In this document: one piece after another, positions 7,517 to 35,595 of the stretch
How the letters are laid out: every line of letters starts with the position of its first letter
Position numbering within the stretch: the stretch's first letter is position 1
DNA from: Saccoglossus kowalevskii
Lineage: Eukaryota; Hemichordata; Enteropneusta; Harrimaniidae
Length of the DNA: 40,050 nt
Direction of reading: 5' to 3'
NCBI RefSeq assembly: GCF_000003605.2
Contig: NW_003138326.1
Location: forward strand, 183,619-223,668
Notes under the pieces: model-generated
What the model was told of the DNA's origin: nothing
What the model saw: the letters and a program-made list of their open reading frames with translations, nothing else
Databases searched by the model: none
Made by a program: the position numbers and the translations under genes

Positions 7517-7520
<4 letters not shown>

Positions 7521-8869: not shown

Positions 8870-8887
8870 ATGGTGGACACCACACAG
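8870..8887 (+). CDS. Candidate alternative first coding exon of the PDE2A-like gene (MVDTTQ)
   Basis: ATG GTG GAC ACC ACA CAG ends at a perfect consensus donor, CAG|GTGAGT, with the intron starting at 8888. An in-frame TGA lies eight codons before the ATG, so it is the first start in this frame. The exon ends in phase 0 and would therefore join exon 3 (35506, phase 0) in frame, giving MVDTTQ-DALLELC and skipping exon 2. It cannot join exon 2 in frame. From memory, mammalian PDE2A1 has its own first exon joined at this same DALL position. The Kozak context is mediocre (T at -3, G at +4). The surrounding DNA is CpG-rich, as expected of a first exon. There is no transcript evidence, and it could be a 5' UTR exon or a chance donor. 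Confidence 0.35.
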
Positions 8888-11800
8888 GTGAGTAACAATC
8901 GTTTGTTGTGGAATTAATGGACATGTTACCTTATTGACGTATCTCTGCCGAGTAGGTGTACGTCTTGGCGATGTATAAGAGTAACACTAGCAACGCCGGC
9001 GACGCGTCACATCCACCAGCCGTATCCGTAGCAACCCATCAATCTCGTTGAGGTCGGGAATGAAAACGGGGAGGGGGACGTGTTTTTTTAATGTAGTAGA
9101 TTAAAGTGTAAGACGCTGGCTGAATTCACCGCATTCTAACAGTGTTCACTCGTACGAGATATTTCCAATACGCAACACCCCTTCACGTTATCCTCCTTTA
9201 GTGCGGTGACATAAAGACACGCGCGTCTTACACACGTTTTACACTGCGGTTTACATGCATTAATATAGATGTCACATCGTACAAAGATGCATTAAGACAA
9301 AGTGGAGCTCAGAGTATCGATCCGTTTGCCTGTTTGATGTATTGTCACTGATTCACACTGGCGTCGGCCAAGCTAACGTGGCGGCGACGAAGTGCGTGGA
9401 GGATCAACTTATGAACGTAATTGTACAGATGTGTTTCCATGGTGATAAATAAAGATTGTTCACGGTTCTTTCAGATGTTTGACGTAAAATGCAGCCGCAC
9501 TCAAGCGAAATAAAAAATGTGGGTTTCTGTTGTGTCCAGTGGTGCTTGCGGTTTAAAGTAAATAAGATTTCAAATGTACGCCATCTCAAGTTAGTCTCTC
9601 ACGATCATGAGGTCATTGGTGAAGGTAGACGTCGATTGACCATATTTCATGTATAGACAACCAAAGCTACATTGACCGATAAATCCTCTTTAGCAACCAA
9701 TGATACTCCGGCGAGTCGAAACTAGTTTGTAAGATGTTGAATGTATCAGATAATCTCAGACTAGTATTGCTAGTCGGAGAGATAATGCAACATTCACAAT
9801 AGTCCGCAAACCCAAGCAAAATATATTTCCTCCCATGTACAGTTTGAGCAATTTGTCCTTCGGTTGAGTCTAAGCCAGTAATCGTATTATTGAAGGTTTG
9901 CCAGCGGCTGCCAATTCGCACAGTTAAAATCCAAAGACGAGAATATATTTCGTACAAGGAGATTCACAATATGGTATGTATTTATTACTATAGCAGAGAA
10001 TGTCCAACTACCATATATCCTATGGTGTAATGGACTGTCCATATAAACACGGGCGGAATATCGACGAGCTCGACCGCATATGGATAGTGCAAAATGAAAT
10101 GGTTCACTGCTAACGAATGTTGTTTTCGTATACACAATGTTGCACATCGAACGTAAATTAACATTTAATTATGAACGTCCGTTTCACGCGTGATTATGGG
10201 TGGCTTCGCTACATTTCGTCTGCCAGCGATGACGTGTGCGCTCAAAGTTTTGAGTTTTCCGGGGTATTAATATAATATGCACTATATTTGCAAAGTAAGA
10301 CATCTCTGTTCGTGCAAAATATTTATGTTTACATACACGTTTAAACAGCTGATTTTTAAGGTCATGATCACGTATCATATGTAATTAAAACTATGAACAC
10401 ATTCATATTTCAAGACTAACCACATATTTATTCGCTACGAACGAAAAAGCAAATCTTTATATTTTTTATAGAAAACCTTTTCCAACCGATGATATGTCTT
10501 TAAGCTCTTTTTTGTCATAAAAAACACGATCTCGACATTTCGGTAACGGTCGGTCATGCTGAGTGTGTCCGACATGCGCAGTGGACGTTTCCTTACTCTT
10601 CTTCTTGTTATCAGGTTGGAGTCGTAGTATTATTAAAGTTAAAGTTGACTGAACGCGGTACGAAGCATAATTAATTGAGTACACACTGTTAACGAGAACA
10701 CAGAAAATTCTCCTACGGCGGTGTTTCAAATCAATGAAATTAATGTGGTGTATTTTCTATTCTGTGTAACTGCATGCTGTAAGAGAAGACATATTCTATA
10801 TTTTAAACGTGCATTAACGGCAATAAAGATTCGATACTATGTCTTCGTGAAAAAGGGCGGGTGTTCAATACGTGATGCCCCTTATATTAAAGTTGAACCC
10901 CAATTTGAAGGGAACACAATCTGCCATAGTAGTTAATGATCTTTTTTGCGGCATTTGTCACGACTCGCTCCCCAATACTGGCGGGTCTCGCCCAGTATCT
11001 ATTGATAAAAACATGCTTCTCAGTTAAGTTTAATTGAACACCGTTTTATGTGTTACAATGTCTTTGTTGTGAACTGGCCGGTTTGAACTTAGTGAAAGGG
11101 AATTCACTTCTCTCACTGTAAAGACTGGTTTATTGGTGATTTTCTCATTTATGTCCAATTCTTGGGTCAATAGGTTGTCGGTGACGCGGGAGTTCAACAC
11201 GTGCTTCTATATAACACCAAGATCTTGGTAACAGTTTCGTCAATTTCCGGTAATGTGGGCACGTTCTGACGTTATGGTTATATTTTAATTTCAGACACTG
11301 CTCTCATGTCTAGGCCCTTTCTTTGCAAGTTTTCACTTTTATTTTTGGCAGTTATTAATTATGTTAAGATTTTACTGAACATTTTGTAATATAATATAAT
11401 ACCCAAAAGTCCACCGTGAGATCCCGCGTTATTTGTGAGATTGGAAGTAAAAACATTACAAACGTCATATTCATAGCGTAGTAATGACAACACTTCGCGT
11501 GGAATTCGACACGAAAGCATTTCGAGGTATTTTCACGCATATACACATTTGATGATCATGGTCAATTTTCCTGAACTAAGTATATCGCAATGTCATATTC
11601 TCCACTGCAGCCTCGGCATTGCGATATTAAACTATAAAAAGGGAGAATTCAAGTTCAAAATCAAATCATTCGATTTTTGCAGCAGACATTCGGTCCGCGC
11701 CTTTACGCATTGTGCGAGATCTCGCAGTGAATGGAACACATATGGCAAACGTGTGTGCAGCATGTTGTATTTGTACAACAGGGTTGTCAACTAATTTTAA

Positions 11801-12484
11801 TTTAAAACTGTGGGTGACACGAATTATGATGGAACATTTTCTAAGATCTGTGGTTTTACTGAGTTTTTTGCGCCAACACTCTTACTCTGGATACAAAGTT
11901 GGTGAAATTATGGGCCAAATCATCAAATAATATCTGCGTGCAGGTGCGAATGTTGTATTCCGCCCAAATATGAGTTTGTAACGATTATACTTTTACCTAG
12001 TAGTAGAATACGATTAGACATTGCAGATCAGGGTAGTTTATGACGAGAGCGAAGATGTGCAACAAGATACGGGTAGTGACGGCCAATCTGTTGTTACTGT
12101 AGTCTAGACATTTGACTGAAATTCGTTACTCATATGCACGAAATACCCAATGCGATAACGACGTCTTTGCAAATAATCCTATCCAGATCATTCTATGCCC
12201 CTAGTTGCTATGCATTGCGTATCGCGTATTGATATTATGTCAAGATTTACCGAGGAAAGGCGTATAACTTGAGTGACGGTGGTACCTAACTCGGAACTTG
12301 TTTCCGTGGAAAAAACAATGAATTTTTAAGCCCAACTGACAATTTTAAATTGAACAGCAGGTAAAAATTCAACTAAATGAGTTTTTAAACAATCTTTTGT
12401 CTTCTCACTTTCAGGGAAATTTATATTCGGTGTTTTCATCTGCAGATGTCGCTCGCCAGACGTAATCAATTATTGTGGTCAAGC

Positions 12485-12648
12485 TTAAAGCGGGGGTATT
12501 GTCACCTGCGCATGCAGCAAACGGACATAGCGTGTTGATGTTTACAAACAAACGTCTACACATGAGCCTTAGCGTTTTCAGCGTGTGTTGTTATCGTCGC
12601 TTGGGACTCAATTCCCGCGCATGCGTAGGTGACGACCCCTCCGCATTT
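12485..12648. mobile_element. TTAA-flanked MITE, copy 1 (piggyBac-like target)
   Basis: This element of about 164 bp starts at TTAA (12485-12488) followed by AGCGGGGGTATTGTCACCTG. It ends in the inverted counterpart CGTAGGTGACGACCCCTCCG; the right TTAA is mutated to ATTT. It is homologous over its whole length to the reverse complement of the element at 19282-19448, sharing the internal block ACACGCTAAAA / TTTTAGCGTGTGTTGTTATCGTCG. The two open frames over this interval (12475-12672 plus, 12556-12768 minus) are by-products of the repeat. Confidence 0.8.
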
Positions 12649-13787
12649 CATACAATCTATTTCTATGAATAAACTGGGAAATAACGTTTTGACGGATACG
12701 TGACCATCACACATGATGTGTGTACAATGCTCGTCAGGATAAATGGATACATATTTTCTGTGCCTCAAATGTCGGTCAGTGTCCCTCTAAAACTGTGTTT
12801 TAGTTCCATGGTGTCCCGGGTCAGTGAGTTAACCTGATTTGTCACCTATACCTCACCATGTCTATCGTTGTCATGGTTCTAAACACGTTACAATGTTTAC
12901 TATTTGTATTTTCATTGCATGTGTTACATACTTCACGACCATTGAGTAGCAGATCCGTTGTTTAATAACTAACTAAAGACATCGTAAATTCGTGGACGTT
13001 TACCCAATGTATTAGTGTCGGAAAACATAGCCATTCTCGTCATTTAAAAAGAGCTAAAAATCGTCGCTACGGTAAAAGAAACACGCCTGTCCGCTGTCGT
13101 CGGCCATATCGTAAAGTATATTGTGCACGCGAGCCCCTTATTTTTCTGTTGGGTTTAGGTTATTAGAACTGTTGTCAAGTACCGTATTCATTATTTGCTG
13201 GTTTTTAATTTCGCTATTTTCGCCGATATGTATAATCCGCTAAATTAAATAAACTTCAAGGTGTAAAATAACAATAAAATTTATTGTTTCTATACCAAGT
13301 TTAAAACCCAGTGAAAAAGATCAAACTAGTGAAATTTAAACTCCAGTTTTATAATAAATATTACACTACCGAACCATCAGCGGATTCAGTATGGTAAATA
13401 AACAAGTAATCACCATGTAGTGTGATTATGAGAATCACATGGTTGCTTTGTTTCCTCCTATTAACATGTAATTCTAGTTGAAAGGACGTCTCATATATTT
13501 CAGATGTACCAAATAATTATACATGGTCGGTATCATAGTGACGTCAGGTGGACTCCACCACTATATATACAGGACAGCAACAGAGTAAGATCTCCCATGT
13601 ACTATGTAGATTTACTAAAGTTACGTGAAAGGCCACACACGTATAACAAGTATTTTAGCATTTACCTGGAACAAATCAGGCGACTCCATCGTTCGCAATT
13701 ACGTAATTGTCAATTATTATACTCCAGGATATGTGCCCGATGGGAAGCGTTTTTTACTGGAGTTCCGGGAAACCCGATCTGGACCGG

Positions 13788-13816
13788 GACCTACATACCC
13801 ATACCCATACCCATAA
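13788..13816. repeat. Short CCCATA hexamer repeat
   Basis: About four tandem copies of CCCATA (TATGGG on the other strand). This is not the TTAGGG telomeric unit. It creates Ile-Pro or Tyr-Pro repeats in overlapping plus-strand open frames at 13504-13824, which otherwise have no protein-family features. Confidence 0.85.
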
Positions 13817-14808
13817 GCTACTAGGTCATTCGATTTTTTGCACATGCGTCAAGAAGGGACTTTTGACATAACCGGAGAGAGGGGTATTTTGTGACTATGT
13901 CAGTACTGATCCAAATGAATCAAAATTGGGTCGTCTAACGTGTTCCCGATTTCTAGAGAAAGTAACTATTTTGAGCCCCCATATTAAGAGTTTAAAAAAA
14001 ACGCATAAGTTTGTGAAAAGTATTGAGTATCGCCGGGGTAACAAACGTGAAGGGGTTGTCAAATGTCCCACTTCCACACTTTAGTCACGTTTTCTGTGAT
14101 TCAGGGGGTCATTAATTTGAATATTTTGGAACAGCCACGTATAGGGTGGGTAAAAAAGAATTGCTTAGTCATACACGTCCATTGTGGACTTTTTTCATGA
14201 TAATTGCAGCTCCATCTGGTCCGGGTCATATATTTCAGACCTAGACCACTGTAAGATTCCAGACACATATACCACGTAAGTTGTTGCTTGCCTGTAAATT
14301 TTGTTTAATTTACACAAAATAAAGACTTTCTATACTTACTGGTAAAAAAATACGACTTGAAAGACGTTGACACTTTCGTTGCTATGGTATTTATGTGGCG
14401 AGTTTATATCAACCCCATGTTGATTTCATTAGTGGAATAGGGCAATACTCTTTTACACAGGTTCATTTAATTAAAGAAATGTGTATCCGTGCTCTGGAAC
14501 ACAGTCACTCACTTGGAATTTATTGCTGCTTTTGTAGTTGCCATTATATTTTTTCTGACACTTTTAACGAGTCCGTATTGAAACCCTTGGATACTGTATA
14601 TAACAAATAATTACTGGGTCGGAAAACAATAAAACTAAATTGAAGACAATTCTTCGCGGACCCTGAGAGATTTTCAATGCGCATGCAGAAAATACGTGTT
14701 TATTTACTAGTACATGTAGTTTAGAAAATACGAGGACATGTGAGTTAAATTAAACATGCTTTTGTAAATTGTCCATTATCCCAGTGTATTCAAAGTATCG
14801 CGTATCTG

Positions 14809-14850
14809 TGACGTATATAACCCAGTCTGTCCTCCATCTTCGTGTCATCA
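14809..14850 (+). promoter_or_regulatory. Candidate core promoter of the PDE2A-like gene
   Basis: TGACGTA (a CRE-like half site, 14809-14815) overlaps TATATAA (14814-14820). An initiator-like TCATCA lies about 30 bases downstream, at about 14845-14850. A transcript starting there would have a 5' UTR of about 425 bases before the ATG at 15274. That UTR would contain an upstream open frame starting at 14866 (METLSRDHSTT...). The assignment rests on motif spacing and position only. Confidence 0.3.
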
Positions 14851-15273
14851 GGAAAACATTGGCTATGGAAACTTTATCCCGGGATCATAGTACCACAGTC
14901 CACTCCGAGCTCATGAGTTGACTACATCTGAGAGATTGCTGCAGTCTCGTGCAGTTATTACAAACAGCGCTCGTCTATATACGTTTTCACTGCTCTGCAA
15001 CAATGTCTGCACACTCAGCTGGTCCAATGAACTCTACTTTATTTCCATATTCAAAGATACAATGAATTGTTCTCCTTTTGTCCCCCCCCCCTTCATAAAT
15101 CACACCGTTGTCCAATTAACGGAATCGGTTTCTCAGTCAGTCAAGCTTGGGGAAAATCAATCCGCCATTCGATCGTCTGAGTTACTGAACCGAGCTGTGT
15201 GGACTCCTCCCAGCTAGCTGATTAAAAATTAACACGATCCCATTAGCCTCCGCGATTTGCTGGTCAAAACAAC

Positions 15274-15296
15274 ATGGCGACTACAACACCGAGCAG
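15274..15296 (+). CDS. PDE2A: PDE2A-like, first coding exon of the spliced isoform (MATTTPS)
   Basis: ATG in the context AACAACATGGCG (A at -3, G at +4) begins MATTTPS plus two bases (AG) and ends at a good donor, GAGCAG|GTACAT. Joining to 15614 completes AGG (Arg) and continues DRRKFVKRLSS. The intron is 317 bases. Reading on into the intron stops after three codons, so splicing is required. The leader is short, hydrophilic and rich in Thr. It lacks the Gly2 and Cys of the myristoylated mammalian PDE2A3 leader, so this isoform should be soluble unless modified in another way. From memory, mammalian PDE2A3 also joins its common exon within an Arg codon. The splice phase and downstream homology support the exon; the precise transcription start is not known. 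Confidence 0.72.
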
Positions 15297-15563
15297 GTAC
15301 ATATAATTGTGTGTTTTATCCGCGGTGATTTTGACAAATACATATTTGGGTTTGATCAGAGCTCCTTCATCTGTTTTGTTTGTTCTATTTGGGGGTCAAT
15401 CTGACCGCTAGAGGGCGTTGATTTTAACTAACCAATGAAATTACAGTAAACTATCAACATCAATAGCTGCAAATTACTACTAGTTTTACGCTATGTTGAC
15501 CCACAAATCGCTGTCAAATTCATATTGATTGCAACTTTATGGTTGGGATTTTGAGCCCAGAAG

Positions 15564-15613
15564 ATGGTTTTGGTGCTCTACCATGTGCTAGCAGCTGCAT
15601 TTTTCTATTACAG
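15564..15613 (+). CDS. PDE2A: PDE2A-like, alternative N-terminus with hydrophobic leader (PDE2A2-type)
   Basis: ATG in strong context (AAGATGG), preceded by an in-frame TGA four codons upstream, reads MVLVLYHVLAAAFFYYR. It then runs without interruption into exon 2 (DRRKFVKRLSS). As I remember it, the mammalian PDE2A2 leader is MVLVLHHILIAVVQFLRR: the first five residues are identical, and length, hydrophobic pattern and closing Arg agree. In mammals that leader has been linked to membrane and mitochondrial targeting, so this product is probably organelle- or membrane-associated (inference). The last codons, TTC TAT TAC AG, double as the acceptor used by the 15274 isoform. Transcription would start in the 317-base intron 1, or the intron would be retained. 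Confidence 0.82.
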
Positions 15614-15716
15614 GGACCGACGGAAATTTGTGAAGAGGTTATCGAGTGACGGTCGCAAAAGTGTCGACGACAAGACAGCGGAGATGAGCGATCGAAGACG
15701 ACAAGAAACGTTTGAG
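15614..15716 (+). CDS. PDE2A: PDE2A-like, common exon 2
   Basis: This 103-base exon sits between acceptor TTTTTCTATTACAG and donor GAG|GTGAGT. It enters in phase 2 (the first G completes an Arg codon) and leaves in phase 0. It encodes 34 residues, from DRRKFVKRLSS to RRRQETFE, strongly charged and probably disordered: a linker ahead of the GAF-A region. In mammalian PDE2A the corresponding stretch is a proline-rich linker, so sequence similarity is not expected, but position and phase fit. RRKFVKRLSSD contains basic residues followed by Ser-Ser, a possible PKA-type site (RLSS). Exon 3 follows after a 19.8 kb intron. Confidence 0.85.
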
Positions 15717-18700
15717 GTGAGTATCTTCCGTCTCTTCTTTTTCCAATATTGATGCATAATTATTCAACCGTGAACATCCAGAATAGAAATGTAATGCCTC
15801 CTTCTGGCGGTGTTTGGATGTTTGTAGTACAAATACTAAAACACCTCGCTATCACAGCACCCCCTTCTTTTAAACGCATTCGTCCTCTTTTCTGCTCTCT
15901 TGAATTGTGAGAAGTGCTATTGACTTTGAAATCATTCACCAGACACGATAATTGGTGTTATGGGTGACCGAGTTGCAAAATCAAAGAGCGCATCGTTATC
16001 ATGATTGTTGTGACACTGATCATGCATAATCAGTCGTCCTACTTTGTTGTTCCATCTTTTTTTTAAAGTCTGTCTGCCGTCTAGTCTTGATCGATATTTG
16101 CAATTCGATATTGACTTCAAATGTGACATGTTTTGTTGATGTTATAAACCAGGCTGCTTGGGGTACAATGATAACAATGTATTCCTGCATTTACTAATTT
16201 AAATGACAACACATAGCATCGACACGTCAGTTAATGAATTAAAATGCCTTTAGGCAAAATCACAACTGGGCACTGGACTATTAAATTTGAAACACTCTAC
16301 TAGTTCTATAGTTCTAGGCACAGCAGCAAAAATAGATTACCTCTGTGGTGTCAGTTAAACATAATAAATCAGAGTGAGACTACATTTTTATCTAATACTT
16401 TCAGTTAGTTTTACATTAGCAAAGACATATGTATTACCCCTTTTCAACTATATGTGTTGTGAGCTTAAAATAATTCCTTGAGTTTGTTCAATGGCTCTAG
16501 CCAGCAAAAAATTGTGTGTATTACCGGTAAATGTTCGTCTCAAGTCAGCTCAAGCCGAGCCTGGCTCCAATCGTGGGGTTGAGCTGGGCCTGACATTGCT
16601 TGACTGTGTAAAATCATCGGGCCAAAATCACGCCCTCCACTGCCTTCTTAAAATAATGTTCTATTCCAATCACAGCATCTCAGGATTTGATTTTAATTTC
16701 TGTGTGGAAACTGTAGATGAATGAAGTGCAGCACCCGTGATCATGAAAATGAGTGTTGTTCGTCAGTGGCAATTGTCACAAATCGTTTGCTGCATTTTTA
16801 CTTGTCGCGAAATGTCACCCTAGCATATGTATTGTGTCTTGTACAGAAACAGGCCATGTTGTTCTCACATAAAATTTTTGTGACAGACTGTGCTGTTCAC
16901 GCAATACAAAAAATTTTCATTACTGCATTTTCTGCTGATGTCAAACTAATGAGAGAAAACTTTGTGGGATTATACAGTATTTATTTATGCTTATCCCTCC
17001 TGTCCATTAAATTGTGATTAATTATACATACCAATCTTGACCATATTACCGCCCATGTCCGGTCAAGCACCCACTCCCTTTTTTGCACAATTTTTATATT
17101 CATGGTCACATTCACCGAGGTACCTACCCATTACTGTTCTGTGATTATACTGTTGTTATTTCTCTGAAGTTATTGTTAACAGATCACAATTCAACATTAA
17201 TTTTCCCCCAAAATGTCATCAATAAATACCGGTAATCATAATTCTCAGATAATTGCATTGGTACATCACAGCATTCTCATTGGTTAATAATGGCATATTT
17301 GACCTAACAGGTCAAAGCACGTTGTTGCATCGAGAATTTGCACATGATCAAAACCATTCAATAAAGAATTGAATTACGACGCAAATTGTTTCATTGAACA
17401 ATATTTTAAGTAATATACTTCCGAACATGTAGTGAGACAATTTTCTGAGTAAGGTAAATTTGAAATTATAATATCATACGATTCATCGTAAGTTATTGAA
17501 TACGACAAAGAGATCTTCAAAAAAAGTTTGCTCAGCTGGAAATAATTCAATGACTTTAATAACGCTTTTTATTTTGCAAAAAAAAAAAAGTGCTTTACTT
17601 GATCTGTGTCATGCTTTTCTCATTCCAAAAAATAATTGAAAATAATGAATCAGCTGGGAGTCCTGAAGTAGGATATTACATTCATGACTTGTTTACATTG
17701 CCCGTTATGCCAGCAGACATGAATCCCTTGTTATTAATAAGCTACAGTTAACAACACCCTCAAGTACTTCATTGGTTTTGCAATTTTGATGTTGCACTGT
17801 CAAAAGTCTATCATCACATTTGAACTTTAGTCAGGTTGTATATGGTGCACGATGATAAAAGGTAAAATGTAATGATGTGTGGGGTCAATAAATAAAGCTT
17901 CTAATATTAAGTGGGGCGCTATAGGTATAAATCATTCATCACTGAGATTTAACCTGATAAGCATAAATACCTGCCGTGTGAGTTTTCAGTTTACCAACAA
18001 CAGCTATTTAGTTAATTAACAAGATTGTGGGACACAAAAATATACAAAGTCATCAATAATTTTTTTTTAATCTTGTAGTAATATAGTTACCGGTATGCTA
18101 AATCAAGAACTTTATACAGGTTTCAGGAAGGCGTGAATTTGTTTTATGGGCATTTGTAAATATTTATAAAACATTTTTTCCAAAAAATGTTTATGCTTTA
18201 TTCAAATCCAAAGAAGAGGCTTTTATTGGCTGGAGAAACCTTTTGGTAATGCCTATTACCCATGAGTCTTTGCAGGTTTTTTTCAATTATTGACCGAGTT
18301 TCTGCCATGAATGCAAAAAAATGGTCTGTTCAGGTCATCACTTTTCAGTAAAATAAAGTGGGCAAACCAGGATATGTAAGAATTGTGATTAGATCTTCAT
18401 GATTAAAATTGTACTAATTATACAGTAACAGAATTAAATCCATGAGTATATTGATCACATTCCTGTCATCTCAGATCACACTTTTTTTTCCTCACTTTCA
18501 CTGAAATGTGTACATGTATTAATACCTGTGACTTTATAAATTTTGATAAAGAAATTATTTGCTTCTCAAAGCTATTGAACATTTTTTCAATTCAGCATGA
18601 TTTGGCTGTCTTGTGTAGAGGAATGCAATATCACTGATGTGTTGTAACATATTTTTAATATACATTTATTACGCAAAGTAATATATATTACCAGGCACAT

Positions 18701-19281
18701 ACAATTATTTTGAGATATAGTGTTATATTACATCGTCAATCAATATCTGCACACTCATGTCTGTATTTCTGAGTAGAACCTATAACTAAAAAATGTAATG
18801 CATTATAACTTGCAGTCTCAATTCTTTGCACATAGCCAATAGACCTTTAATGGAACTGACAAATTGTCAGGATTCAGAATTTAATTAGAGGTTGACCACT
18901 CAAATCTAATTATAAAGGATTTAATTAGTTTAGTGGTCTCGGTAAATTTGTATTCTTTCCTTTCTGGGTTGACACTTGGTAATGCTAGAGAGTGTGTGAG
19001 TGTATTATGCTCATTTACTCAGTCTGTTGAATATTTATTGAGAATTGTTAAATTGAAACGACAGTGTCTGATTATTCACCAGTGATGAAATCCCATTCCA
19101 ATACATATTTTTAGTAATATGTATATACTGTTAATGGTATTTTGCTGATTGAAATGTTTTTGCAGTTGTTGTTTTGCCATTCTAATACAACTTGAATGCT
19201 AAACTGTCACTTGGATCGTGTTGATGGATATACCACAGGCAGAAACAGTACTTGTTTATAAACTTATCAAGTCATATTTGC

Positions 19282-19448
19282 TTAAAGCGGTAGGGTTGTT
19301 CCCTGCGCGCAAGCGCAGGAATTGTGTCCCAAACGACGATAACAACACACGCTAAAAATGCAAAGGCTCATGGGTAAATGCTTGTTTGCAAACAATGACA
19401 CACTATGGCCATCTGACGCATGCGCAGGTGACGACTCCCCCGTTTTAA
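19282..19448. mobile_element. TTAA-flanked MITE, copy 2 (inverted relative to copy 1)
   Basis: A 167 bp element with intact TTAA on both sides (19282-19285 and 19445-19448). The left end is AGCGGTAGGGTTGTTCCCTG and the right end is GGTGACGACTCCCCCGTT. Its reverse complement aligns along the full length with 12485-12648. TTAA duplication is the signature of piggyBac-type transposition. There is no coding capacity. The 62-codon minus-strand frame at 19368-19556 only partly overlaps the element and is not credible. Confidence 0.85.
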
Positions 19449-20955: not shown

Positions 20956-21099
20956 TATAATCCCATGATATCTTCTCTTAAGTTTGACGTCAACAGAGAC
21001 GAGTGATTACTGCCAGAGTTTTGTGTCAATCCAAGCCTAAGGTTACTCTGGTGGTAATCATTAGTGTCTTCTGACGTCAAACTAAGATGTGGGATTATA
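20956..21099. mobile_element. Foldback MITE with TA target duplication
   Basis: TA plus TAATCCCA at the left and TGGGATTA plus TA at the right bound an almost fully palindromic element of 140 bp. The arms extend about 55 bases each, with a perfect 12 bp match AGTTTGACGTCA / TGACGTCAAACT and a near match GTGATTACTGCCAGAG / CTCTGGTGGTAATCAT. The loop is only about 30 bases. There is no coding capacity. TGACGTCA is also a full CRE palindrome, present once in each arm. Confidence 0.8.
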
Positions 21100-21472
21100 T
21101 ATTCATCACATGTATGTTTCCACAGTTTGAAAAATGAAACAGTAAATGGCTAAATGTGAATTGCTGATACCTGTAATATTCATACATGTATATCATTGTG
21201 TGTGTCTCATGCTACACAACACATTAATGCTCAGCATATGCTATGTATTGATTCTGCTCATTGCTGAAATTTTGCTCTACTTGGTAAAGATATTTCAAAT
21301 TGAATTGAGCGAATAATTCTAAATAAACCTTAGACAAAATTTAAATTTAAGAGTACCGGTACATGTCTATTTAAAAGCCCATTTTCAGGTATTTAGATGT
21401 TGTAAACAGCTTACTGGTACATCAAGTTCTGGTCAAAATTGTTGTTCAGTGACTAGGTTACTACATTGAATA

Positions 21473-23276: not shown

Positions 23277-23302
23277 CGGTAGGTAGTAGGTAGTAGGTAG
23301 TA
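23277..23302. repeat. GGTAGTA heptamer microsatellite
   Basis: Between three and four tandem copies of a 7 bp unit (GGTAGTA) directly after an ACCGGTA word. Confidence 0.9.
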
Positions 23303-26300
23303 TGTTCTTTGTGCTTCTGTGGCTTTGGTGGAGGACAGCAGATTGATTTTCAAGTAATTGTCTAATAGTGGTGACAGTACGTGTAGCTTTAATAGTGCCA
23401 GGGGACTTTGCATTCTCTAGTCTTCATAGCTCTATGCACTCTTATGGGAATGGGTTTTAGTACCCAGTATTGTGGTTTATTATTTTGTTGCCTGCTGTAT
23501 AAATAGAATATCGAGCCAGCTGAGAACAATGAGTAGGTCATCAACATCTGTAGCCCCATTAACAATGCATACCAATTTGTTTGTTATAAATCTAGAGCAC
23601 AATGTTGTTATTTGCCACATCTGTTGAAATAAACTTATCGCATCAGTAGTTTTAATGAGATCCGAAAAAAAAAATTGTTTTTTTTTTTTTAACTTTTTTT
23701 TTTTGTCTTATGTCTTTTTATTTATGGAGTCACTGATAGAAATGAGTGGAGTCAAAGTCATGACCAATAATGGTTTAATTGTTGTTTGAGGAATGTATTT
23801 ATTCTTAAGTTAATCAGGACATTGTCCTTTCTAGCAGGTTACTGTCCTTGTCCTTTATTTGGGGAACACATAGCAGGCTGTTCAGATGCTTTCTACCATG
23901 AAATATATTATTGTAGTGGTTTAAAGCTTTCTAGATTTTCATGGTATCCCGTTAAGCCTGAACTCAATTATGTGAGGACATGTTTGCTTGTTGATGACTT
24001 TTTTTTTATTGATTTTTTTAAAATCAAATTTATTTTTCAAACTGACTTGTGTTGTGGCTATTCAGTTTTTAGTAATTCCCTGTATTAAAGGGATAGCCTT
24101 GTTGGGCGTTGTTTGATTTTAAGGTGGATGTACATATTTCATTCAATGTTAGTTAGATTAAGGTTTCAACATGTAGGTTGCAACCTAGTAATACATATAT
24201 ATGTAGTGTTAATGTACAAATGTATTTGCTCTCTTTGTAGCATGCATATCCACTTGTGTAAATGACAAAATAAGTTAATTTAATGATGAAGCACACGATA
24301 AATGTATTTCTGTTAATAGAACAAAGGCAGTAAATGTTTCATGAAAGTTTATTCTTATGAAATGATCAAATGAAATTATTAATCAGAAATCCATATTACA
24401 TAAAAGTGTGAGTAGGGATGTAATATACTTTGTCAAACTATTGATCAATTCTAATTTGCACTCTAAGTAGCAGTGTTTCAGAGGTGTTTCTATAATCTAA
24501 CTATTAAAGTAATATTTTAATGATTCAGTATACAACAAATGCCAGCTTTGGTTTATATGCATTTGATAAAGCAAATATATAATAAAGATATAATAAAGTA
24601 GTTTGTATCAATGAAATCAGTAGAAACAATTCATATTTAAGCTGAATAGTCAACTCAAAAATTAGCAGTGAAAAATACTTAAAGTAAAAGTAAAATCAAT
24701 TCATTCTTGCCAAAAACTTGCTTTATTTTTAACTTGTTTTAACTGTAATTAATTTTCACTAAAATCTGTAATTTGGGTGTGTGTAAGGTAATTTTTATTT
24801 TAAAAATAAGGAAAAGTATTTAGCTGGATTTTGCTCCAGAATAAGTGAATGTAAATGTACCCACATGTATACTAATTTGTACCACTTATTAATTATGCAA
24901 AATAATATGCAAATATGGGAAATGAATGTACAACACATCAATATTTGCAAATATCAGCTCAGTTGTATTCTAATTTGTTTAAACTGAATAACGTTTGGAA
25001 TATTTACAATAGATAGATAAATGAGCTGACATAAAGTGACTTTTGAATCAATACACATTACATAGCAAACATGTTGATCAAGCCTTTGCTGTACATGTAT
25101 AGGTTACATATAATGTATTAGAAAGCACCATTAATGTTGCTAACTGTGTAGTATTTCCCATTAATAAACTTTCAAACATACATAAATTTGATAGAATGTT
25201 ATGGGCTTGGTGTTCATGTATTCAGAGTATGTAAAACCATTTTGCATGATCTGCTGGTAAAATCATACAACATTCATATATTGATTAGTTTAATGCTGCT
25301 GTATTGAATCTACTAATGCAGTTTTTTCGTATCAAGTCTGTCAGCTGAGATATCAAGCACTGGAACTGAACTGTATGACTACTCAGTCATCTGGTAAACT
25401 CAGTCTAGCATTCAGAACTGTTGTGTGGAAAGGAGATTGCAGTAGGCAGAGGTCATGGAGTGTTAACACATAGCTTTCTTCAGACCTGAAATTGGCAATT
25501 TATAAAATTGCTGGGGGCATGGAGAACTATCTAGTTATTTCTTTCTGTGAACACTCCTTGTTTTAGACATATGCTTTGTTGATTAAATTTTGTGGTTTTC
25601 CATTTCAAATGTCAAAATTCTGCCCCTTTCCTTTTCTACTTTTGTTGTTAATGATTCCCCAGGAAATTTTGGAAAGTCTTTCAAATCGCAAGTGTTATCA
25701 TTGGAGATTGTAGTTACAGTTAAAACCTAAACTATATTTCACCTAAATGTCAAATTCGGTGTATATCATGACTGTTCATTCACTCTCTTTCAAACATACA
25801 TGTAGTTGCACTTTTGTACATAACATATGTGGTTTAAATATATAATTTAACGATATTTTCATTTCGGTTGAGTAATGCCTCCAGAGTTATGTTTGATCTT
25901 AAGCCATAGGCTTAGGAGAAATTAATGTGCAATTACCCCTATTTGAACGCCAAAGTTCATCAACATGAACATAAACCTGCATATTTTTTTTACAAAAATT
26001 GATCAGAAAATGTAGGCAGTGACAAATTTGGTCTAAAATTATAGGAAAGTATAAATATGCAAAACGATATGTACCATGCTGTTGCTTATGAGATACTATG
26101 ATATTTTCTCCTTTTCAATAAATGTTGGCTGTCGATTCATTGTTAAATATCAGTACATAGCATATATAAAGAAAAAAACAACGAAAATACTAATTATTAA
26201 AGTGTGAAAATTGTTTTTTTTTTTAAAAAAACAACTGTAATGGCCTAAATTGTAGCTTATTGTGTACACTGTAGAATACTTATTTTGGCTAGAATTAATT

Positions 26301-27603
26301 TTTGCTGAAAAGACATTTTGGTTGTTTTTCATAAATGTTCTTTTACCTGATTTTTGATGAGTCAAATATAAAATTTAGGAAAAAATGTATTTTCACTTCA
26401 GCAAAAATAAGCGAAAATAAATTCTGAGTGAAAATAATAAGTTTTTAATAATAATTTTTTTCACAGGCAGTATTCAGATTAAAATTGCCTTCTTTCTAAT
26501 TGAGTTTAAGGGTTTAGACTGAAACTCGTCTTTTTAATGAATAACAGTACATGTACCTATTCTATAAAACATAGCATGATTCATTAATTCACTATCTAAA
26601 TGTCAATTGAGTGAGGTCTGGGTACAGACTCATATAAGTACATCAAGGGTTGCTTTTACATAATGCAACAAAGAAACCTTAGATAATTGTCTGCAAAGCT
26701 GCCTTTTCATAAGAGTATTATCAAACAGTCTTGCCTATACTCTTCATGTTAGTTCTAATGTAATAATATTAGTATTTTTACATGAGATTTGCACGGAACT
26801 TTTGGCAGTTGAATAGTAACATTAATCACTGCATATTTGTAATATTGTAAAAACATTAGGCCATTGATCACTTGGTTCAAGGCTATATATTGTGCAGTGT
26901 CTCACAAATATAAAGGCAAACATTTGTAAAATAAACACTTGCATAATCATGTCCAAGTAGGTTGAGCCCAGTTTTTCCAGTTTGAATATCAAACATTAAG
27001 GTTAATATTTTCCCATTAAAATTGCTTGTTCAGTATATATAGGGGAAGGTACTAAAGTTTGTTCTTGGTTTTGGTCATATCATATTTGCTTTATTGACAT
27101 AAATGACAAAGGTATGTTTATACTTGTCATACTAATTTATAATCCAGTATAGAATAAATGCAATTGTTCATTTACATACACTTCTATTAGAGATAAAGTT
27201 CTAATAGAGCAATTAGTATGAGAGTCATTTTTACTACTAATCACTGTATGAATGTTTAGACCACTTATAACATTTCTAGCATTATTACATTTGTTTTTGT
27301 TTTCTATTTGTTATGCAATGAATATGTTTTTGAGTAGATATTGGAGTTGCATGTCTAATAAAGGAATATGGTAATTGTATGTATTTTACTGACTGCAATA
27401 TGTTTTATAATTTCTCAGAAAATGAATGTTATAGATATTAGATTCCTTAATTGAAGTACTTTTATGGGGGGGTAGTATTAAAACCTCAGTAGTAATTGTT
27501 TGTTTGTGGTTGAGAAGCAGACTTATTCAGCTAGCAGAAAGGCAGAACAGCCAGTTTAAAAATACTAGTCTGTAGCATTGGCCCCTTCTAATGCATTAGT
27601 GGT

Positions 27604-28232
27604 GTTCACGTTAGAGATCTCGGCATGTGCCAAGACTTGGACCGAGTCGACATGTGTCTAAACTTGTGTGTGACGGTCGGGACCGAGTCCGCACGCGCCG
27701 AAAAAAACTTGATCTCAGTCTCTATACATGCTTGAAACCGAAACTCAGCACATGCCGAGATTTGCTGCCTGACCACTTGGCATGAGCCGAACTCATGCCC
27801 TTGATGGTAAACATACTAGTATATATGGTCGGATGCTGTAGTAATGAATGAATGAATGAATGAATGAATGAATGAAATGAATGCAAATCGTCGTCCAGCG
27901 ATGCATATTTATGTACTGCTGCAATGCTACATTGATGTGAAAAAATAATTATTTTTCGAATCGTCTTTGCCGTTCATGTGCACGATGACTCGTAATAAAT
28001 ACCATAACAACAAATGTATATAATTTCAATATAGCAATTATTATTATCATCGTCTGCGAATCGTTTTTCATGTTTGGGTGAAATAACAGATCGGCGAATG
28101 AGGGCGTGATTTCGGCACAAGCCGAGTCGGTCCTAAGTGGATCCTGAATAACGTGAATGTAACTGCTGTAATCCCTCTGCAAACACAAAGGATTAAACAT
28201 TTCGGCACGTGCCGAGTTCCCGTAACGTGAAC
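27604..28232. mobile_element. Non-autonomous DNA transposon with GTTCACGTTA termini, 629 bp
   Basis: The left end, GTTCACGTTAGAGATCTCGG followed by CATGTGCC, is the inverted counterpart of the right end, GGCACGTGCCGAG followed by TTCCCGTAACGTGAAC. With a few mismatches and a 1 bp indel the inverted repeat is about 28-30 bp. CGGCAC/GTGCCG motifs recur inside (27690s, 27750s, 28110s), suggesting nested subterminal repeats. The element is CpG-rich within a CpG-poor intron, so it is a recent or foreign insertion. It holds a GAAT microsatellite at 27844-27884. I see no clear target duplication and no transposase; the 108-codon frame at 27949-28275 spans the right end and looks spurious. Confidence 0.7.
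27844..27884. repeat. GAAT tetramer microsatellite
   Basis: About eight to nine tandem GAAT/TGAA units with one interruption (GAAATGAA), inside the 27604-28232 element. Confidence 0.95.
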
Positions 28233-29620
28233 GTAGTAATTGTATGTACCATATACATGTACATGTACACAACATTGCACTATAACAAAAAGCCCCAATA
28301 AAATTAAAATATAAAAAAAAAATTGTTTTCCCATTTTGCTTCTAGCTAGTGCAGTGTATTAAAATCTGTTATTGACTAGAATTCTAGTAATAACATGTTT
28401 TATTATATATTTCCCCATTGGAATGAAAGAATTTGTGTTTTACAAAAAATTGCAACAGTAATCCTTATAGAGTTGTGTTTCCATGTGATGGCTTCATTTC
28501 AAATCTCATGCCTCAGAGACTTAATACAAAGGCCTGATATTTATTAATATTGCCTGTGAAAATTTAACATGCAGTGACATAAAAGATGAATTTTCCTAGA
28601 AAAAAAATGGAGCTGAGCATTTCATCCACCTGACTGCATATATATTTACTGGAAAGCTGTATTGAAAAGCCTCTAAAAATCAATTTAACACACTCTATCC
28701 TACATGCATATGACTCTAAGAAATTGTAACTGTGAGAAGACAGATTCAGGATGGCGGAAAATACATGTAATGAACCCATATGCAGATAAATGATTGAAAT
28801 AGCTGGCCCTGATTTACTGCAAGGCAGAGATAATAGATAGCCTACTTGGATATATATATACAATTCACATAATTTCTGATTTATACATATTTTACATATC
28901 ACATTTGTTAACAGCATGTTGGTATACTGTTTTATTCTACAATGTACTATAACAGTATTGGTTATGGCAACTTAATCACAAATTACTGCTTCTTAAAAAC
29001 CAATGCAAAAAAAAAAAAAAAATGGATACAGTAATTGCTATATAGTACCGTCACTCCAATAATTGACCTCGGCTTGTTGCTATGGTAATTTGCTGACATC
29101 AGTTAAATTAACTGGAAAATTGCAGGGCTGAGGTTCAGTGTATGTACATTGTACACCGGTTTTGAAATAATTTGCAAAGTGGCAGGTTTTAGCAAACTGT
29201 ACACATTTTCTTTGTTGACTTCTTGCCAGATACATATTCTGCCTGAAAAGATCAAGTAATTTCCAGTTGCTTGTATAATGAGGCGATTGTATGTCTTGTA
29301 AATGAATAATTTATGAACCAAGCAGAGAATTATTTATGCTCTGGTTGGAGGTTTGAGAATAACATGTATTTTTTTCATGATCAGATCACATGATCGACTG
29401 TGAGGCCTTTTTATCTCTTTTTCACTGAAGATTTAATTTGCATCTAATTAATCTGTTTAGAAACACATCTGGTAAATTGTTCAATGACTCTAATGCTCTA
29501 CTGATGTTTCAAGCCATTCTCGGTTTTCTCATTTTGTCTTTTGCTAATTCATTTATCATTATTTGTCATCTACATGTAGGAAGAGAACTATAATATTATT
29601 ATATTAAACCAGTGTAATTA

Positions 29621-30378
29621 GTCCCCGTTCGGACGAAGTTCGAAAACGGGGACTTATAATAAATGGTCTCCGTCCGTCCGTGCGTCTGTGCGTCCGTCCG
29701 TCCGTCCGGAGTCATATCTTTCATGTGCCTAGTACCTTATGTGGGACATATGCACATGCAGTGGTTTAGCGATTCACTTCAAAATAGCCGACTGGCAGCC
29801 ATCTTGTTTTTTGAAAATGTTGTATTTTGGACATGCTTTGTCAGTTGTCATTCAAACTTGGTACATAGATTATACATGTTAGGATACATGTTCATGACGA
29901 TTTATTTCTCAATTGGATCAAAGATGGTCGACTGGCAGGCATCTTGTTTTTGTTTTTTTATGCAGTGTCTTGGACGTGCTCTGTCAGTTTTCATTCAAAT
30001 TTGGCACATACATGTACTTTATACATGTTAGGATGCATGTCCATGACAATTTGTTTCAAAATCTGGTCAAGGATGGTCGATTGACAGCCATCTGACTTTT
30101 TGGTCTTACTACTATATTTCCACAATTTATGTACCATTTACATTCGTATTTGGCACACACATCATCCATATCAGTGCGTTTCATAATCAGATCAAAGATA
30201 GTCGAATAACGGCTGTTTTTTTAATTTTGGCCATATTACTACTACATTGTACATGGAACACGTGTTCCAATCTGTTGTATACGCCACTTGAAACTCAAGT
30301 TTCAAGGACACGCTCGCGACAACCCCTCTGCTTTAATATGACGAGCACAAGGAGAACTTTCAAAAATTTTACGGGGAC
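29621..30378. mobile_element. GTCCCCGT...ACGGGGAC-bounded repeat element with internal tandem units
   Basis: Starts GTCCCCGTTCGGACGAAGTT and ends TTTTACGGGGAC, an 8-9 bp inverted pair. The left end is itself a hairpin (GTCCCCGTT ... AACGGGGAC, 29621-29652). A run of CCGTCCGT follows (29671-29707). Then come about four degenerate units of about 130 bases: each has ATTCAAACTTGGTACATA-like sequence, a block like ACATGTTAGGATACATGTTC, and AAGATGGTCGACTGGCAGGC ending in ATCTTG. The plus-strand open frames of 122 and 60 codons (29663, 29913) are produced by these repeats. There is no clear target duplication. Similar internal units recur outside the element at 31225-31265 and 36464-36880. Confidence 0.7.
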
Positions 30379-32072
30379 TGTCATTTTCAATGACTTGTTA
30401 AAAAATATCTTGTTTTAGTTCATGCAAAGAATGGTTTAATGCACTGTTATCCATGTGTTATGGTTATTCCCCAGAATATGAATAATAAATATTGATACTA
30501 AATCAGTATCTTTCGAAAATTGGCTTTGATTCTAGGAATACAAACTACACTTATGGACAATGTGATAAATATAGACAGTTTGTTAATGGGGAGGTGAAAG
30601 TGACTTTACTGTAGTACAGTAAGCGAATGATAATAGATAATACATTTTTGTTTGCACTAATTTACTCAAGCGAGCATCAATTCGCAGTCTGTGCTTTGTA
30701 GTGGCGTTTATGATGCTGTTCATCAATTTGTTTATTATGATGTCATCAAATCTATGCAAGCCTCTGCAAAGAAATAAAATATGGAAATAAACATAACTTC
30801 AACAGCAGCATGTTAGAAGTTACGAAAATAATGCTGATATAATAATAATAACCCCTGCCAAATTCTTGAATGCTACTGTGTACTTTCCTTCCCATATATG
30901 TTGTGAATTGTGCTATACATGTATCTGGTACTATACTCTCCCTCAGCGGGGAATTAATGCTTAAATATCACTGGACCTGTTACTATATCTGTCACAAAAG
31001 GTTTTGTGAAAACACACTGCACACAAATTTAAAGGATGAACAAACTGAACATGATCAACCCAGCTCATAGTCATCCTGTTACACAGTCAAACAGTATGGC
31101 CTGATAGTCCAGTAAAACTATCTGTATCCGATTAGTAAATTTCCATGTAGGAAAGTAAATTCTTTCACACAAAAAGGACAATTACTAAAAATATACAGGG
31201 AATATGTAATTTACAATGTTTTGTAGTGTGATTAGGTCAAAATAGCGGATTGACGGTTATTTTTTGACATAAAAATGATATAAACTAATGTCTATTGATA
31301 TAATGTGTCCAGTACTGTTAATCAGATATGACTTTGTTGATTGATTTTAGTCAAATTGATAATAATAATACATATTGGGTTGCATATGAGATTTTTATCT
31401 GGGATAAGTCAAATTTGCAATGTAGACTATTAAAATTATTTGACATATTATTTGTTTTTTCGCCATTCGTCATGTGGCAGGTAAAATAAATTACATGTAA
31501 AAGGGAAATTGATATTCTGTGTGTATTAGTTTGATGTCTCCTTTTGATGTTGGTTTGACCCAACTAGTTCCAATCAGATAACTAGTAATTACGTTGCTGT
31601 TTTGGTGTATTTAACAATATGGCAGTGCCAGTAAAGCATAAACTTGCACAAATTCACCAAAAAAAATGTGTATGTTCCATTTGAGGTACTTGTAGTTACT
31701 GATGATGATCACCATTCTGGATATTCCAGTTTCTACATGATTATCCCATGGTACAGTTAACTGTTAAAAGTCCAATCAACCATACAGATTCTTGAACAAA
31801 CAGATTACAGTATGTGCTAATTGGCTTGCTAATGAACATTGACAGATTCCCCTTGGCTTTATATCAAAGTTATCAATTGGGCACATTGTTTGTCACATGC
31901 GTAGGTGATGAGTGATACATGTAGCTCTAGAGCAGTATACATTCACTCTGCTCAAATCTAATCTTGAAACTGAAAGCCTGCAATTCATTTCAGATTGGTT
32001 ACACTTGGAGTGACAGCTTTACTCCTGTTTGCGAAGCACACAATCACACAGTCTTTAGGCTTCACCGCTTGT

Positions 32073-32074
32073 CT

Positions 32075-32108
<34 letters not shown>
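32073..32108. repeat. GT microsatellite
   Basis: About 14 uninterrupted GT units with imperfect CTGTGT repeats before them; this produces the Val-Cys run in an overlapping open frame. Confidence 0.95.
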
Positions 32109-32112
<4 letters not shown>

Positions 32113-32184
32113 CTGTTCCACTCATCAGATTTCAATGTTCTGGGATGTGCAGGCCTGATTAATTTTGGGGGTAAAATCTCTGCA

Positions 32185-32605
32185 TGCTAATTACCAAATT
32201 TGCATCAGCTGTTTCAATATGAATCAGATTTTAATAATTAGCAAATTTTAACTTTCCCGGTGGTATCTCAAGAATGTTCAGCTTTCAGTGAAAGTTTGTG
32301 CATAGGTGGTCTGGGCTACTACACAGACATGATAAATACTAGTAAGCCAATTTTTAGCTGCTCCACAGATTTCAATGAAACTTGGTATATGAATGCTGGG
32401 GGATAATTTACATTACATTGGTTGTAATCCAAGCATATTAATTATCTTATTTACATGAATTAGCCAATATTTAGTTGCTCCACGGATATCTCAGGAACCA
32501 CTCAATTTGCTACATATTGGTTATCTGGGATAATCAACAGACCTCCTTAGTCTGAGATGGAAAACTGCATTTATTAATTACCTAATTTGCATAATAATGA
32601 GATAA
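32185..32605. repeat. Degenerate tandem repeat, about 125-130 bp unit
   Basis: About three diverged copies carrying the same order of blocks: ATTACCAAATTTGCAT or TTAGCCAATATTTAG, GCTCCACAGAT or GTGGTATCTCAAGAA, CAATGAAACTTGGTATAT, and a TTATCTGGGATAAT or GGGGGATAATTT segment. The ACTTGGTA block resembles that of the repeat in 29621-30378, suggesting a related family. Confidence 0.55.
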
Positions 32606-33213
32606 AAATGTCTGCACTTACAATAAAAAAATCTCTGCTTTCATCTTAAATTTACATTGTCCAATTAGGTCTAAATAGGTGGTTTCACATTGGAAAATAA
32701 GGCGTGATACAATGTACATAAGGCAACTTTTGTTGACAACAGTATTTGACCTGTGTTTGACCATTGCAGGCTTGTTGTGAACAATTGATTGATTGAAATA
32801 GAGACATGCTCTTTTTCTTGCAAAGTGATACAGTTGTTGGTTGACAGTGACCAACCAATAAATAGCCTGATGTCATGTGACCGTAGAAAGCAGACTACAA
32901 ATCAGCCCCCAGTAACAATGAAATTATGACACAACATGTAAAGTCTGTCGTGCTATTCTATATAGGTATTGTGGATTGATGAATGATTCACCTATAATAT
33001 AATTAATGAACTAGAGTATATTTGATTGAAAAAATAATGTTATATTTCTATTTGGACTTAAATTTCAATGAAGTTGTAAGGATGATAGTTAATAGGCGGA
33101 TGTATAATATTATGATGGTATGTTTAAAATACCCTGTATTAAGTAATAGAATAATTGCTATACTCACTGCACTGAGCCATAGCAACCTATCTTCTTCTGT
33201 CATTTTGAATCAA

Positions 33214-33287
33214 GTTAACAACAAATGTTGCATTCTGTCACATAATGCAATTTTTGTTACCAATACACTGCAACATTTGTTGTCAAC
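33214..33287. repeat. 19 bp inverted repeat with 36 bp loop
   Basis: GTTAACAACAAATGTTGCA (33214-33232) pairs with TGCAACATTTGTTGTCAAC (33269-33287) with a single mismatch. This is a stable hairpin in either strand. It could be a small foldback element or a structured RNA precursor; nothing else distinguishes the two. Confidence 0.75.
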
Positions 33288-33305
33288 GAACACAAAGCTA
33301 AATAT

Positions 33306-33373
33306 TTAGGCCAGCCTAAATAAGTCGTGCCTGGGAAGGCCCTATTTTTAATCCCCAAGTTAGGCCGGCCTAA
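33306..33373. repeat. Pair of TTAGGCC(A/G)GCCTAA palindromes
   Basis: TTAGGCCAGCCTAA (33306-33319) and the perfect palindrome TTAGGCCGGCCTAA (33360-33373) flank a 40-base segment. They lie 19 bases after the 33214-33287 hairpin. The pair may be the termini of a very short element, or a duplicated binding palindrome. Confidence 0.6.
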
Positions 33374-35505
33374 CAGTATGAACAAGTGCCAGAGTATGTG
33401 ATCGCCACTGTTCTTGACTAAATATGCAAATTAGGTTTGTGGCCTATGTTTCGCAGTCTCAATTTGCATAAACTGAGGGTTTGTGATTTAATCCATCTCT
33501 TGTGACTAGCTCTTGTCCAATCAGCTCATCCTACATGTATTAGAATGTGAAAGATGACAATTCCAAAGATCACAGCCCGTTTAGAAGATATTGATATAGT
33601 GAGCGCAAGTGAAAAGTTGATACTTCTGTCAGTGAATTTTAACAATCATAGTGGCTGAAAGGGAAAGACATTTTTTCCCCCATGTCCTTAAAACTCTGTG
33701 TCACCGATTATTGTCTTGTTCTAGTGTCCAGATAAGTCAAGCCACTGTAGCTGAGTTCCCGTTCAAAAGTTCAAAGCAAACCATATCCCAAATTCAACTG
33801 ATCGTTTGTGCCCACTCTTTTCCCGCCATCTAGATTCAAATTAGACAATTTAAGACACAATTTCGATGATGCAAACCAAATCTTTGTCGAGATTTGCTGC
33901 TCAAATGCAGAAAAATTTTGAGGGAAACACCAATTTGGAGTTTATAAATCTGCATTCCAAAAAAAAGAGGGAGCTTAAAGCCCACCTAAATAATGCGTTT
34001 TGACTGTGTGAAAACGAATCATATTTTAATCTTGTTTATTCAACAAACAAAAAATTTGGGCAGGCCATACGCATGTTAAAAGTAAATCAGGCTAATTTGG
34101 TACACCTTTACACATTAATGAAAGTTGATCTTATTTTGCACAATTTAACTTTTATCTCTAATGCACGTCTATTACATTCAAACTTGGTGCCCCTAAATGT
34201 TTACTACATAGTTTGAATGAGATCAAGGCATTTTCAAAATGTTTTGCCTTGAAAATGAGTACCTTCACAATACTGAAATTCAAGCCCTGTTTTGGCATAT
34301 ATAAACCTACATAATCATCAACAACTAAATGTAACTTTCTTGTTTCATTGTATTGAAAAGATGTACATTGTCTGTCATTTTGAAAATGGATATATTTTTG
34401 ACAGTGCTTGGTACTGACGACAAAGACGGTTGTCAATGATCGCGCCAATTGAAAATACATTTACAGGGAAAATAAATATTTACCCAGGGAAAAATGTTGC
34501 ACACATCAAGAAATAGTAGGAATAATCCCAAGAAAATAGATTAGATATTATTTTAAATATATCCTTGAGTTGTTAGGTTATAGAGACACTGTTACCTGTG
34601 TTTACTGCTGCATTTGTTGAGACAACTAGTTTTTTGAGAGCTAGAAGACAGATGCGCACTTCCTGACAAAAATTTACAAAAAAGCAAGCAAAGTGCTAGG
34701 CTTGATCACCATAGATCATGTCTGTTGACAACTACAACAGTTTGGTATACATGTATTTATGTATATTTACTTGACAGCCACATTGCATTGGAATGAATGC
34801 TTGATGTAGGTAAAGACCACAGTCTCTCTAAGATCAACCAAAGAACAGAACAATAGAGCAGTGTACGTGCATCATGTGACCCTTTTGAGCTTAAAAAGAA
34901 ATCAGTAGAAAAATGGATATTCACCTTTGTTTGCCAAGTTGGTCTTATGGTCTACAAACTGTATAAATTTAACATTAGACCAGAATCACTTTTATAATTT
35001 ATGATCACAGTAAATATTTGTTGTGTGTAGGTAATCTAGGCTACTGATACTGTAACTACAATTAATGTATGTGGAGTTTTTAATAGTATATTACGTTCTT
35101 TTGAAGTCAAAACCTTCTCAAAGTTGATTAAGATTTACATAAGCTTCACTGTGCTGCAAACCGATTGCAAAGGGTTGATGAGTATTATGACACATTTGAC
35201 AGTCAAAGTAAATTCTTCTTTAGAATGTAGCGTTTAACATTACTTGTAAGGCATTTTGCTACTGGTAATACATTATGCTCAAGTACACATTTTACTTGTA
35301 CGCAACACAAGAAATGAATTTTCTACTTGTATACCATGATTTCAATAGGTATTCAAAAAAATGCTTGACTGGACTGCTTTGATGTTATCAACATCAGTGA
35401 GATACCATTGTGTCTTCATGCTATGGATGTCCAACAAAGGTTCAAATCAAGCATGAATTTTAAATTGACCTATAACAGTCATCTTACTTCTCCCCTTCTT
35501 TTCAG

Positions 35506-35595
35506 GATGCTTTGTTGGAACTTTGTGCTGTGTTGGATTGGGAATCTCTTAATGAAGTCATACAAAATGTCTTGAAAGACTGCCTTCCCAATGTG
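35506..35595 (+). CDS. PDE2A: PDE2A-like, common exon 3 (start of the N-terminal regulatory region)
   Basis: A 90-base, phase 0 to phase 0 exon between acceptor CCCCTTCTTTTCAG and donor GTG|GTGAGT. It encodes 30 residues, beginning DALLELCAVLDWESL and ending VLKDCLPNV. From memory, mammalian PDE2A at the same place reads DALLSLGSVIDISGL ... LSAVLPRV: the pattern DALL-L--V-D---L ... L---LP-V is preserved with no gap, just before the GAF-A domain. PDE2 hydrolyses cAMP and cGMP and is activated when cGMP binds its GAF-B domain; the GAF and catalytic domains are not in this window. This exon is the anchor for naming the gene. The next exon (mammalian ETVYTYLLD region) was not found before the right edge, so the following intron exceeds 4.4 kb. 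Confidence 0.88.

Follow-up and report, generated by a model that had tools for sequence, protein, structure and literature searches.

How old are the alternative starts that decide where the cGMP-stimulated phosphodiesterase PDE2A resides in the cell? The short N-termini of PDE2A place the enzyme in the cytosol, mitochondria or plasma membrane, and the mammalian forms are known as cytosolic PDE2A1, mitochondrial PDE2A2 and plasma-membrane PDE2A3 (PMC5423767, PMC7578833). We addressed this question in a 40,050-nucleotide stretch of the genome of the acorn worm Saccoglossus kowalevskii (contig NW_003138326.1, positions 183,619 to 223,668, forward strand), termed the window below, with positions counted from its first letter. 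No reports on N-terminal isoforms of invertebrate PDE2A were found among the matches listed in the open-access literature. Overall, the locus is probably best explained as the 5' part of a PDE2A gene with a conserved PDE2A2-type anchor start, in which the code for the anchor doubles as a splice acceptor, and with a possible distal anchorless form.

Judged from its sequence, the gene in the window is the PDE2A orthologue, represented by its 5' part, of a hemichordate and thus a non-vertebrate, as the initial annotation had proposed in speaking of PDE2A in an invertebrate-like genome. A tblastn comparison of human PDE2A with the window singled out only exon 3, and weakly so (E 0.015; next match 2.6). 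Joining the coding exons designated 2 to 6 (15564-15716, 35506-35595, 46383-46486, 61456-61565 and 65581-65636 in window coordinates), which are collinear on one strand and compatible in phase, gave 171 residues free of stops. Exons 4 (46383-46486), 5 (61456-61565) and 6 (65581-65636) lie downstream of the window on the same contig, each with a fitting phase, and the contig stops after exon 6, at window-coordinate 69875. Against the solved structures (177,635 sequences), the joined protein had a single significant match, the full-length PDE2A chain 9lrn_A (E 3.3e-14); its 4 remaining matches (E up to 10) were importin beta chains (E 0.07-0.09). The chain 9lrn_A is taken as human because the human PDE2A3 N-terminus as typed is identical to it across 282 residues. 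In a one-sequence blastp search, the joined protein aligned with the presumed PDE2A2 sequence from residue 1, with 53 of 171 residues identical (74.7 bits). Exon 4 scored 44 against human PDE2A, compared with 18 for the runner-up among 7 candidates and with 28 as the highest score across 60 random 24-kb sequences. Exons 2 and 3 alone gave nothing significant against PDB (best E 0.73) or Pfam (best E 0.11). Another GAF-type phosphodiesterase (PDE) was ruled out as the identity of the gene, the joined exons matching PDE2A alone among the solved structures.

The predicted PDE2A2-type first coding exon extends from 15564 to 15716 on the forward strand and encodes MVLVLYHVLAAAFFYYRDRRKFVKRLSSDGRKSVDDKTAEMSDRRRQETFE. 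Its product begins with MVLVLYHVLAAAFFYYR, that is, with a 16-residue hydrophobic segment (MVLVLYHVLAAAFFYY) and Arg17, continues with the basic stretch RDRRKFVKR and ends in QETFE. The exon is contiguous with common exon 2, and the reading frame stays open from one into the other, which bears out the earlier proposal of a start MVLVL continuous with exon 2 (open frame 15564-15716). Its donor, GAG/gtgagt (the slash marks the exon boundary), is in phase 0 and ranks second among the 2701 GTs of the window. An in-frame TGA stop (15552-15554, forward strand) lies 12 bases 5' of the MVLVL ATG, making 15564 the first ATG in frame after the stop; another in-frame ATG is found within exon 2 at 15684.

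Compared without gaps, MVLVLYHVLAAAFFYYR and the presumed mammalian PDE2A2 17-mer share 9 of 17 residues, among them the first five, for a score of 44. The next-best ATG peptide reached 24 among 2041 in the window, or 25 with neighbouring stretches added, and the maximum over 204,584 random ATG peptides was 35. On the basis of these scores we rejected a chance origin of the peptide and accept the start at 15564 as homologous to the mammalian PDE2A2 N-terminus, the comparison sequence being partly presumed. Mean hydropathy over residues 1-16 is 1.86 here and 2.35 in the presumed mammalian sequence. The gene appears to be a PDE2A orthologue of the usual kind, in which one alternative start is conserved to an unusual degree.

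If spliced from an upstream exon, common exon 2 would span 15614-15716 (forward strand). Its acceptor, tttttctattacag/g, is placed inside the anchor frame, ranks 18 of 1866 in the window, has 15614 as the first exon base and splits codon 17 (AGG, Arg) as AG/G. In the blastp alignment, this Arg17 pairs with human Arg18, the first residue common to PDE2A2 and PDE2A3. Common exon 3 (35506-35595, forward strand) encodes DALLELCAVLDWESLNEVIQNVLKDCLPNV, starts with DALLELC and is in phase 0 at both ends; its acceptor ranks 1 of 1866 and its donor 5 of 2701. We take DALL to be the point at which mammalian isoforms diverge at the PDE2A1 junction. Good acceptors are thus present at both mammalian divergence points, Arg at exon 2 and DALL (the presumed one) at exon 3. 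The suggestion that the locus has the same two junctions as mammals stands with regard to these acceptors, the human side consisting of protein divergence points, with DALL presumed. The region unique to PDE2A2 is given as amino acids 1-17 in PMC7578833, in agreement with the first junction. Both junction positions, as well as the PDE2A2-type start, look older than vertebrates.

The proposed mechanism relies on the position of the transcript start. With a transcript start between the donor at 15296 and 15564, translation would begin at MVLVL and yield an enzyme anchored in the membrane. The final bases coding for the anchor would also act as the 3' splice site of the intron before exon 2, and a transcript from further upstream would be spliced at this hidden acceptor, with loss of the anchor. 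The phase-0 boundary at DALL in exon 3 would provide a second route to an anchorless enzyme, for which MVDTTQ at 8870 is the best distal candidate. Promoter use, splicing and the membrane or mitochondrial targeting of the predicted anchor form are what we infer from this arrangement. A bolder version, which we regard as improbable, would have a pre-chordate isoform switch in which about 50 bases serve as both anchor code and intron-1 acceptor, the choice of promoter sets whether they are translated, giving an anchored enzyme, or spliced out, leaving it free or targeted elsewhere, and a third, distal promoter gives the anchorless form. If a hemichordate and mammals have a PDE2A2-type anchor in common, the anchored form and both switching junctions would already have existed in the deuterostome ancestor, and the plasma-membrane, acylated PDE2A3 start would seem to be younger or more variable. 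How PDE2A placement arose could then be tested in acorn worms, in sea urchins and in amphioxus.

The acorn-worm form resembles mammalian PDE2A2 (some letters of which are presumed) in its 17-residue hydrophobic N-terminus from MVLVL, the common Arg after it and the exon leading to DALL; it is set apart by the strongly basic stretch behind the anchor and may be so by an anchor reading that runs straight on into exon 2. Several points weigh against the preferred interpretation. The mammalian 17-mer is presumed, the literature confirming only HILIAV(V) and the length of 17. T-rich codons for hydrophobic residues might in part account for the acceptor in the anchor. When the 488-base exon 1/2 DNA was searched for an allelic copy, the one match was the DNA itself. 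A whole-genome search found no GAF-A, GAF-B or catalytic exons assignable to PDE2A, and this search was insensitive, as it also missed known exons. In PMC3621658, a human PDE2A2 primer encodes HILIAV plus two bases of a further Val, and a human non-coding variant is 62 bases longer than PDE2A2; from this variant, the human PDE2A2 start may be a separate exon, not contiguous with exon 2. Finally, amino acids 1-17 of PDE2A2 are described as required and not sufficient for mitochondrial targeting (PMC7578833), so that similar anchors could lead to different destinations.

All three candidate starts in the window (8870, 15274 and 15564) fall into a domain that is not depleted in CpG (6001-16000, no strand), which ends just past exon 2. 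The median observed-to-expected CpG ratio is 1.10 inside this domain (10 bins) versus 0.32 outside (82 bins, of which 5 are at or above 0.84). CpG depletion characterises most of the sequence on either side and the greater part of the PDE2A gene body, in which a few bins (at 27-31 kb and 47-49 kb) reach 0.62-0.85. Among eight other PDE loci on five contigs, the ratio was 1.1-1.2 in two (one contig) and 0.37-0.68 in six. Invertebrate genomes are methylated in a mosaic manner, and patchy CpG depletion is therefore expected. The domain edge past exon 2 would fit a germ-line transcription start near 15.2-15.6 kb and would be slight evidence against constitutive promoter activity at 8.8 kb.

Which starts accompany MVLVL can be approached from the splice sites. 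A possible combination, tentative as it is, consists of two forms, one anchored and starting at MVLVL, the other anchorless with MVDTTQ joined to exon 3, while MATTTPS would be a chance reading. The candidate distal first coding exon (8870-8887, forward strand) ends in CAG/gtgagt in phase 0, and its donor is the strongest in the window (rank 1 of 2701 GTs). Simulation of the whole window produced an ATG with a phase-0 donor of this quality in 2 of 60 runs (P ~0.03), with 0.17 such donors per window on average; in a simulation of the CpG domain, the same type of candidate appeared in 0.8% of 600 sequences (P 0.008) and any donor that good in 3.3%. Upstream of exon 3, the window has no phase-0 candidates with a donor score of at least 10 other than 8870 and 15564. 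However, the 30 kb upstream of the window contain five more such phase-0 candidates with donors of at least 10, none of them matching 8870 and some located in apparent neighbour-gene exons. The Kozak context at 8870 is weak, the 9-15 kb region is unlike a CpG-depleted transcribed body, and the good acceptor inside the anchor would still require another upstream exon. A first exon joined at DALL in phase 0 would yield an anchorless enzyme, as in mammalian PDE2A1, whereas the six residues MVDTTQ are by eye unlike the presumed bovine PDE2A1 start. We consider MVDTTQ as a first exon joined to exon 3 plausible but unproven.

It is rather unlikely that MVLVL is the sole start in use, with both 8870 and 15274 chance readings. 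Such a reading agrees with 15564 being the only start with homology support, but the codon-17 acceptor (rank 18 of 1866), found at the mammalian divergence position, points to the joining of an upstream exon at this site.

The upstream exon might be MATTTPS, giving two forms, MVLVL and MATTTPS, through a 317-base mini-intron (15297-15613), with the motif at 8870 arising by chance or belonging to an untranslated exon; this we find doubtful. The candidate (15274-15296, forward strand) encodes MATTTPS plus AG, ends in /gtacat in phase 2 and could join exon 2 at its good acceptor at 15614; like MVLVL, it lies near the edge of the CpG domain. Its Kozak context is good and the only such one among the candidates in 6-15.6 kb, and a post-hoc test for a good Kozak context within 400 bp of the acceptor gave P 0.04. 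On the other hand, the donor is weak (rank 52 of 2701, no G at +5), and the numbers of candidates equal those expected by chance. Phase-2 candidates of this donor strength in 6-15.6 kb number 5 versus 5.6 expected, those also with a good Kozak context 1 versus 0.76, and phase-2 candidates of this donor strength upstream of exon 2 across the window 11 (6 of them within a tandem repeat) versus 8.2. The MATTTPS start does not stand out from chance candidates.

Use of all three starts, with 8870 corresponding to PDE2A1, 15274 to PDE2A3 and 15564 to PDE2A2, is unlikely. All reading frames, phases and acceptors are present, and both junctions fit the mammalian divergence points (partly presumed). 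Yet MATTTPS is at chance level with a donor ranking 52 of 2701, as compared with 1, 2 and 5 for MVDTTQ, exon 2 and exon 3, and both short exons are too short for a homology test. The Arg at which mammalian PDE2A3 joins the common part could likewise receive the MATTTPS exon here, but the human protein begins with MGQACGH (sequence matching 9lrn_A) and is acylated, whereas MATTTPS lacks both Gly2, the site of N-myristoylation, and Cys for palmitoylation. Human PDE2A3 is described as myristoylated and palmitoylated in PMC3169605. A PDE2A3-like exon starting with MG was also looked for upstream and rejected, as none has a good donor: only two MG-containing phase-2 candidates in the window have a donor above 2, both weak (2.5 and 3.9), and none of the 13 phase-2 candidates with a donor of at least 8.5 between -30 kb and 15.6 kb starts with MG, the 5083 bases just before the window being read as N. 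The initial annotation had envisaged a three-way isoform scheme older than vertebrates; what endures of it is the conserved PDE2A2-type start and the junction positions. For its starts at 8870 and 15274, the reading frames and donors (CAG/gtgagt in phase 0 and a phase-2 donor, respectively) are indeed present; as transcripts, MVDTTQ is backed by splice-site evidence alone and MATTTPS occurs at chance level. The three-way localisation scheme is accordingly treated here as a hypothesis.

It is very improbable that the likeness of MVLVL to mammalian PDE2A2 is a coincidence in which a T-rich acceptor tract is read as hydrophobic codons: such a tract favours these codons and the comparison sequence is partly presumed, but the score exceeds the null maximum, the first five residues (MVLVL) are identical and their codons are located 5' of the T-rich tract, and the frame from 15564 runs in frame with exons 2-6.

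The surroundings of the gene contain several further elements. Between 1638 and 4107, a 31-base unit (TGCTTGTAAAATCATGACTCACAGTTACATG) is repeated in tandem about 80 times in the window, and a scan of the window with Rfam gave nothing at the gathering thresholds. Upstream, from approximately -28.8 kb to -14.4 kb (L014/L012), same-strand open stretches look like a P4-ATPase flippase (apparently ATP8A-like) and likely represent the upstream neighbour gene. An open frame on the minus strand in a CpG-rich patch (L013:160-690) appears similar to a Tc1/mariner-type transposase. Contig C2075 (L016-L018) contains exons of another GAF-type PDE, PDE5/11-like by eye; it was rejected as the site of the rest of PDE2A because its exons look PDE5/11-like and not PDE2-like (family assigned by eye).

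Mollusc haemocyanin, used as a phylum marker, gave no match, in the control genomes either. The mitochondrial genome, which points to S. kowalevskii or a closely related acorn worm, was found on a separate contig of 17,037 bases (C4830, L019-L021). On it, ND1 and COX2 lie on one strand and COX1 on the other, and ND2 precedes ND1, the gene names being our assignments by eye. In COX1, 5 of 9 aligned ATA codons are at human Ile sites and 1 at Met, and the single aligned AAA is at Lys. Codon counts cover ten gene frames, with ATP8, ND3 and ND4L left out; AGG is absent from them except for one codon in the COX3 frame before the likely start, and AGA is rare (7 in total). PMC3121625 describes COX1 of S. 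kowalevskii as inverted and ND1 or ND2 as transposed relative to Balanoglossus, and gives a mitochondrial code in which AUA is Ile, AAA is Lys, AGG is absent and AGA is Ser.

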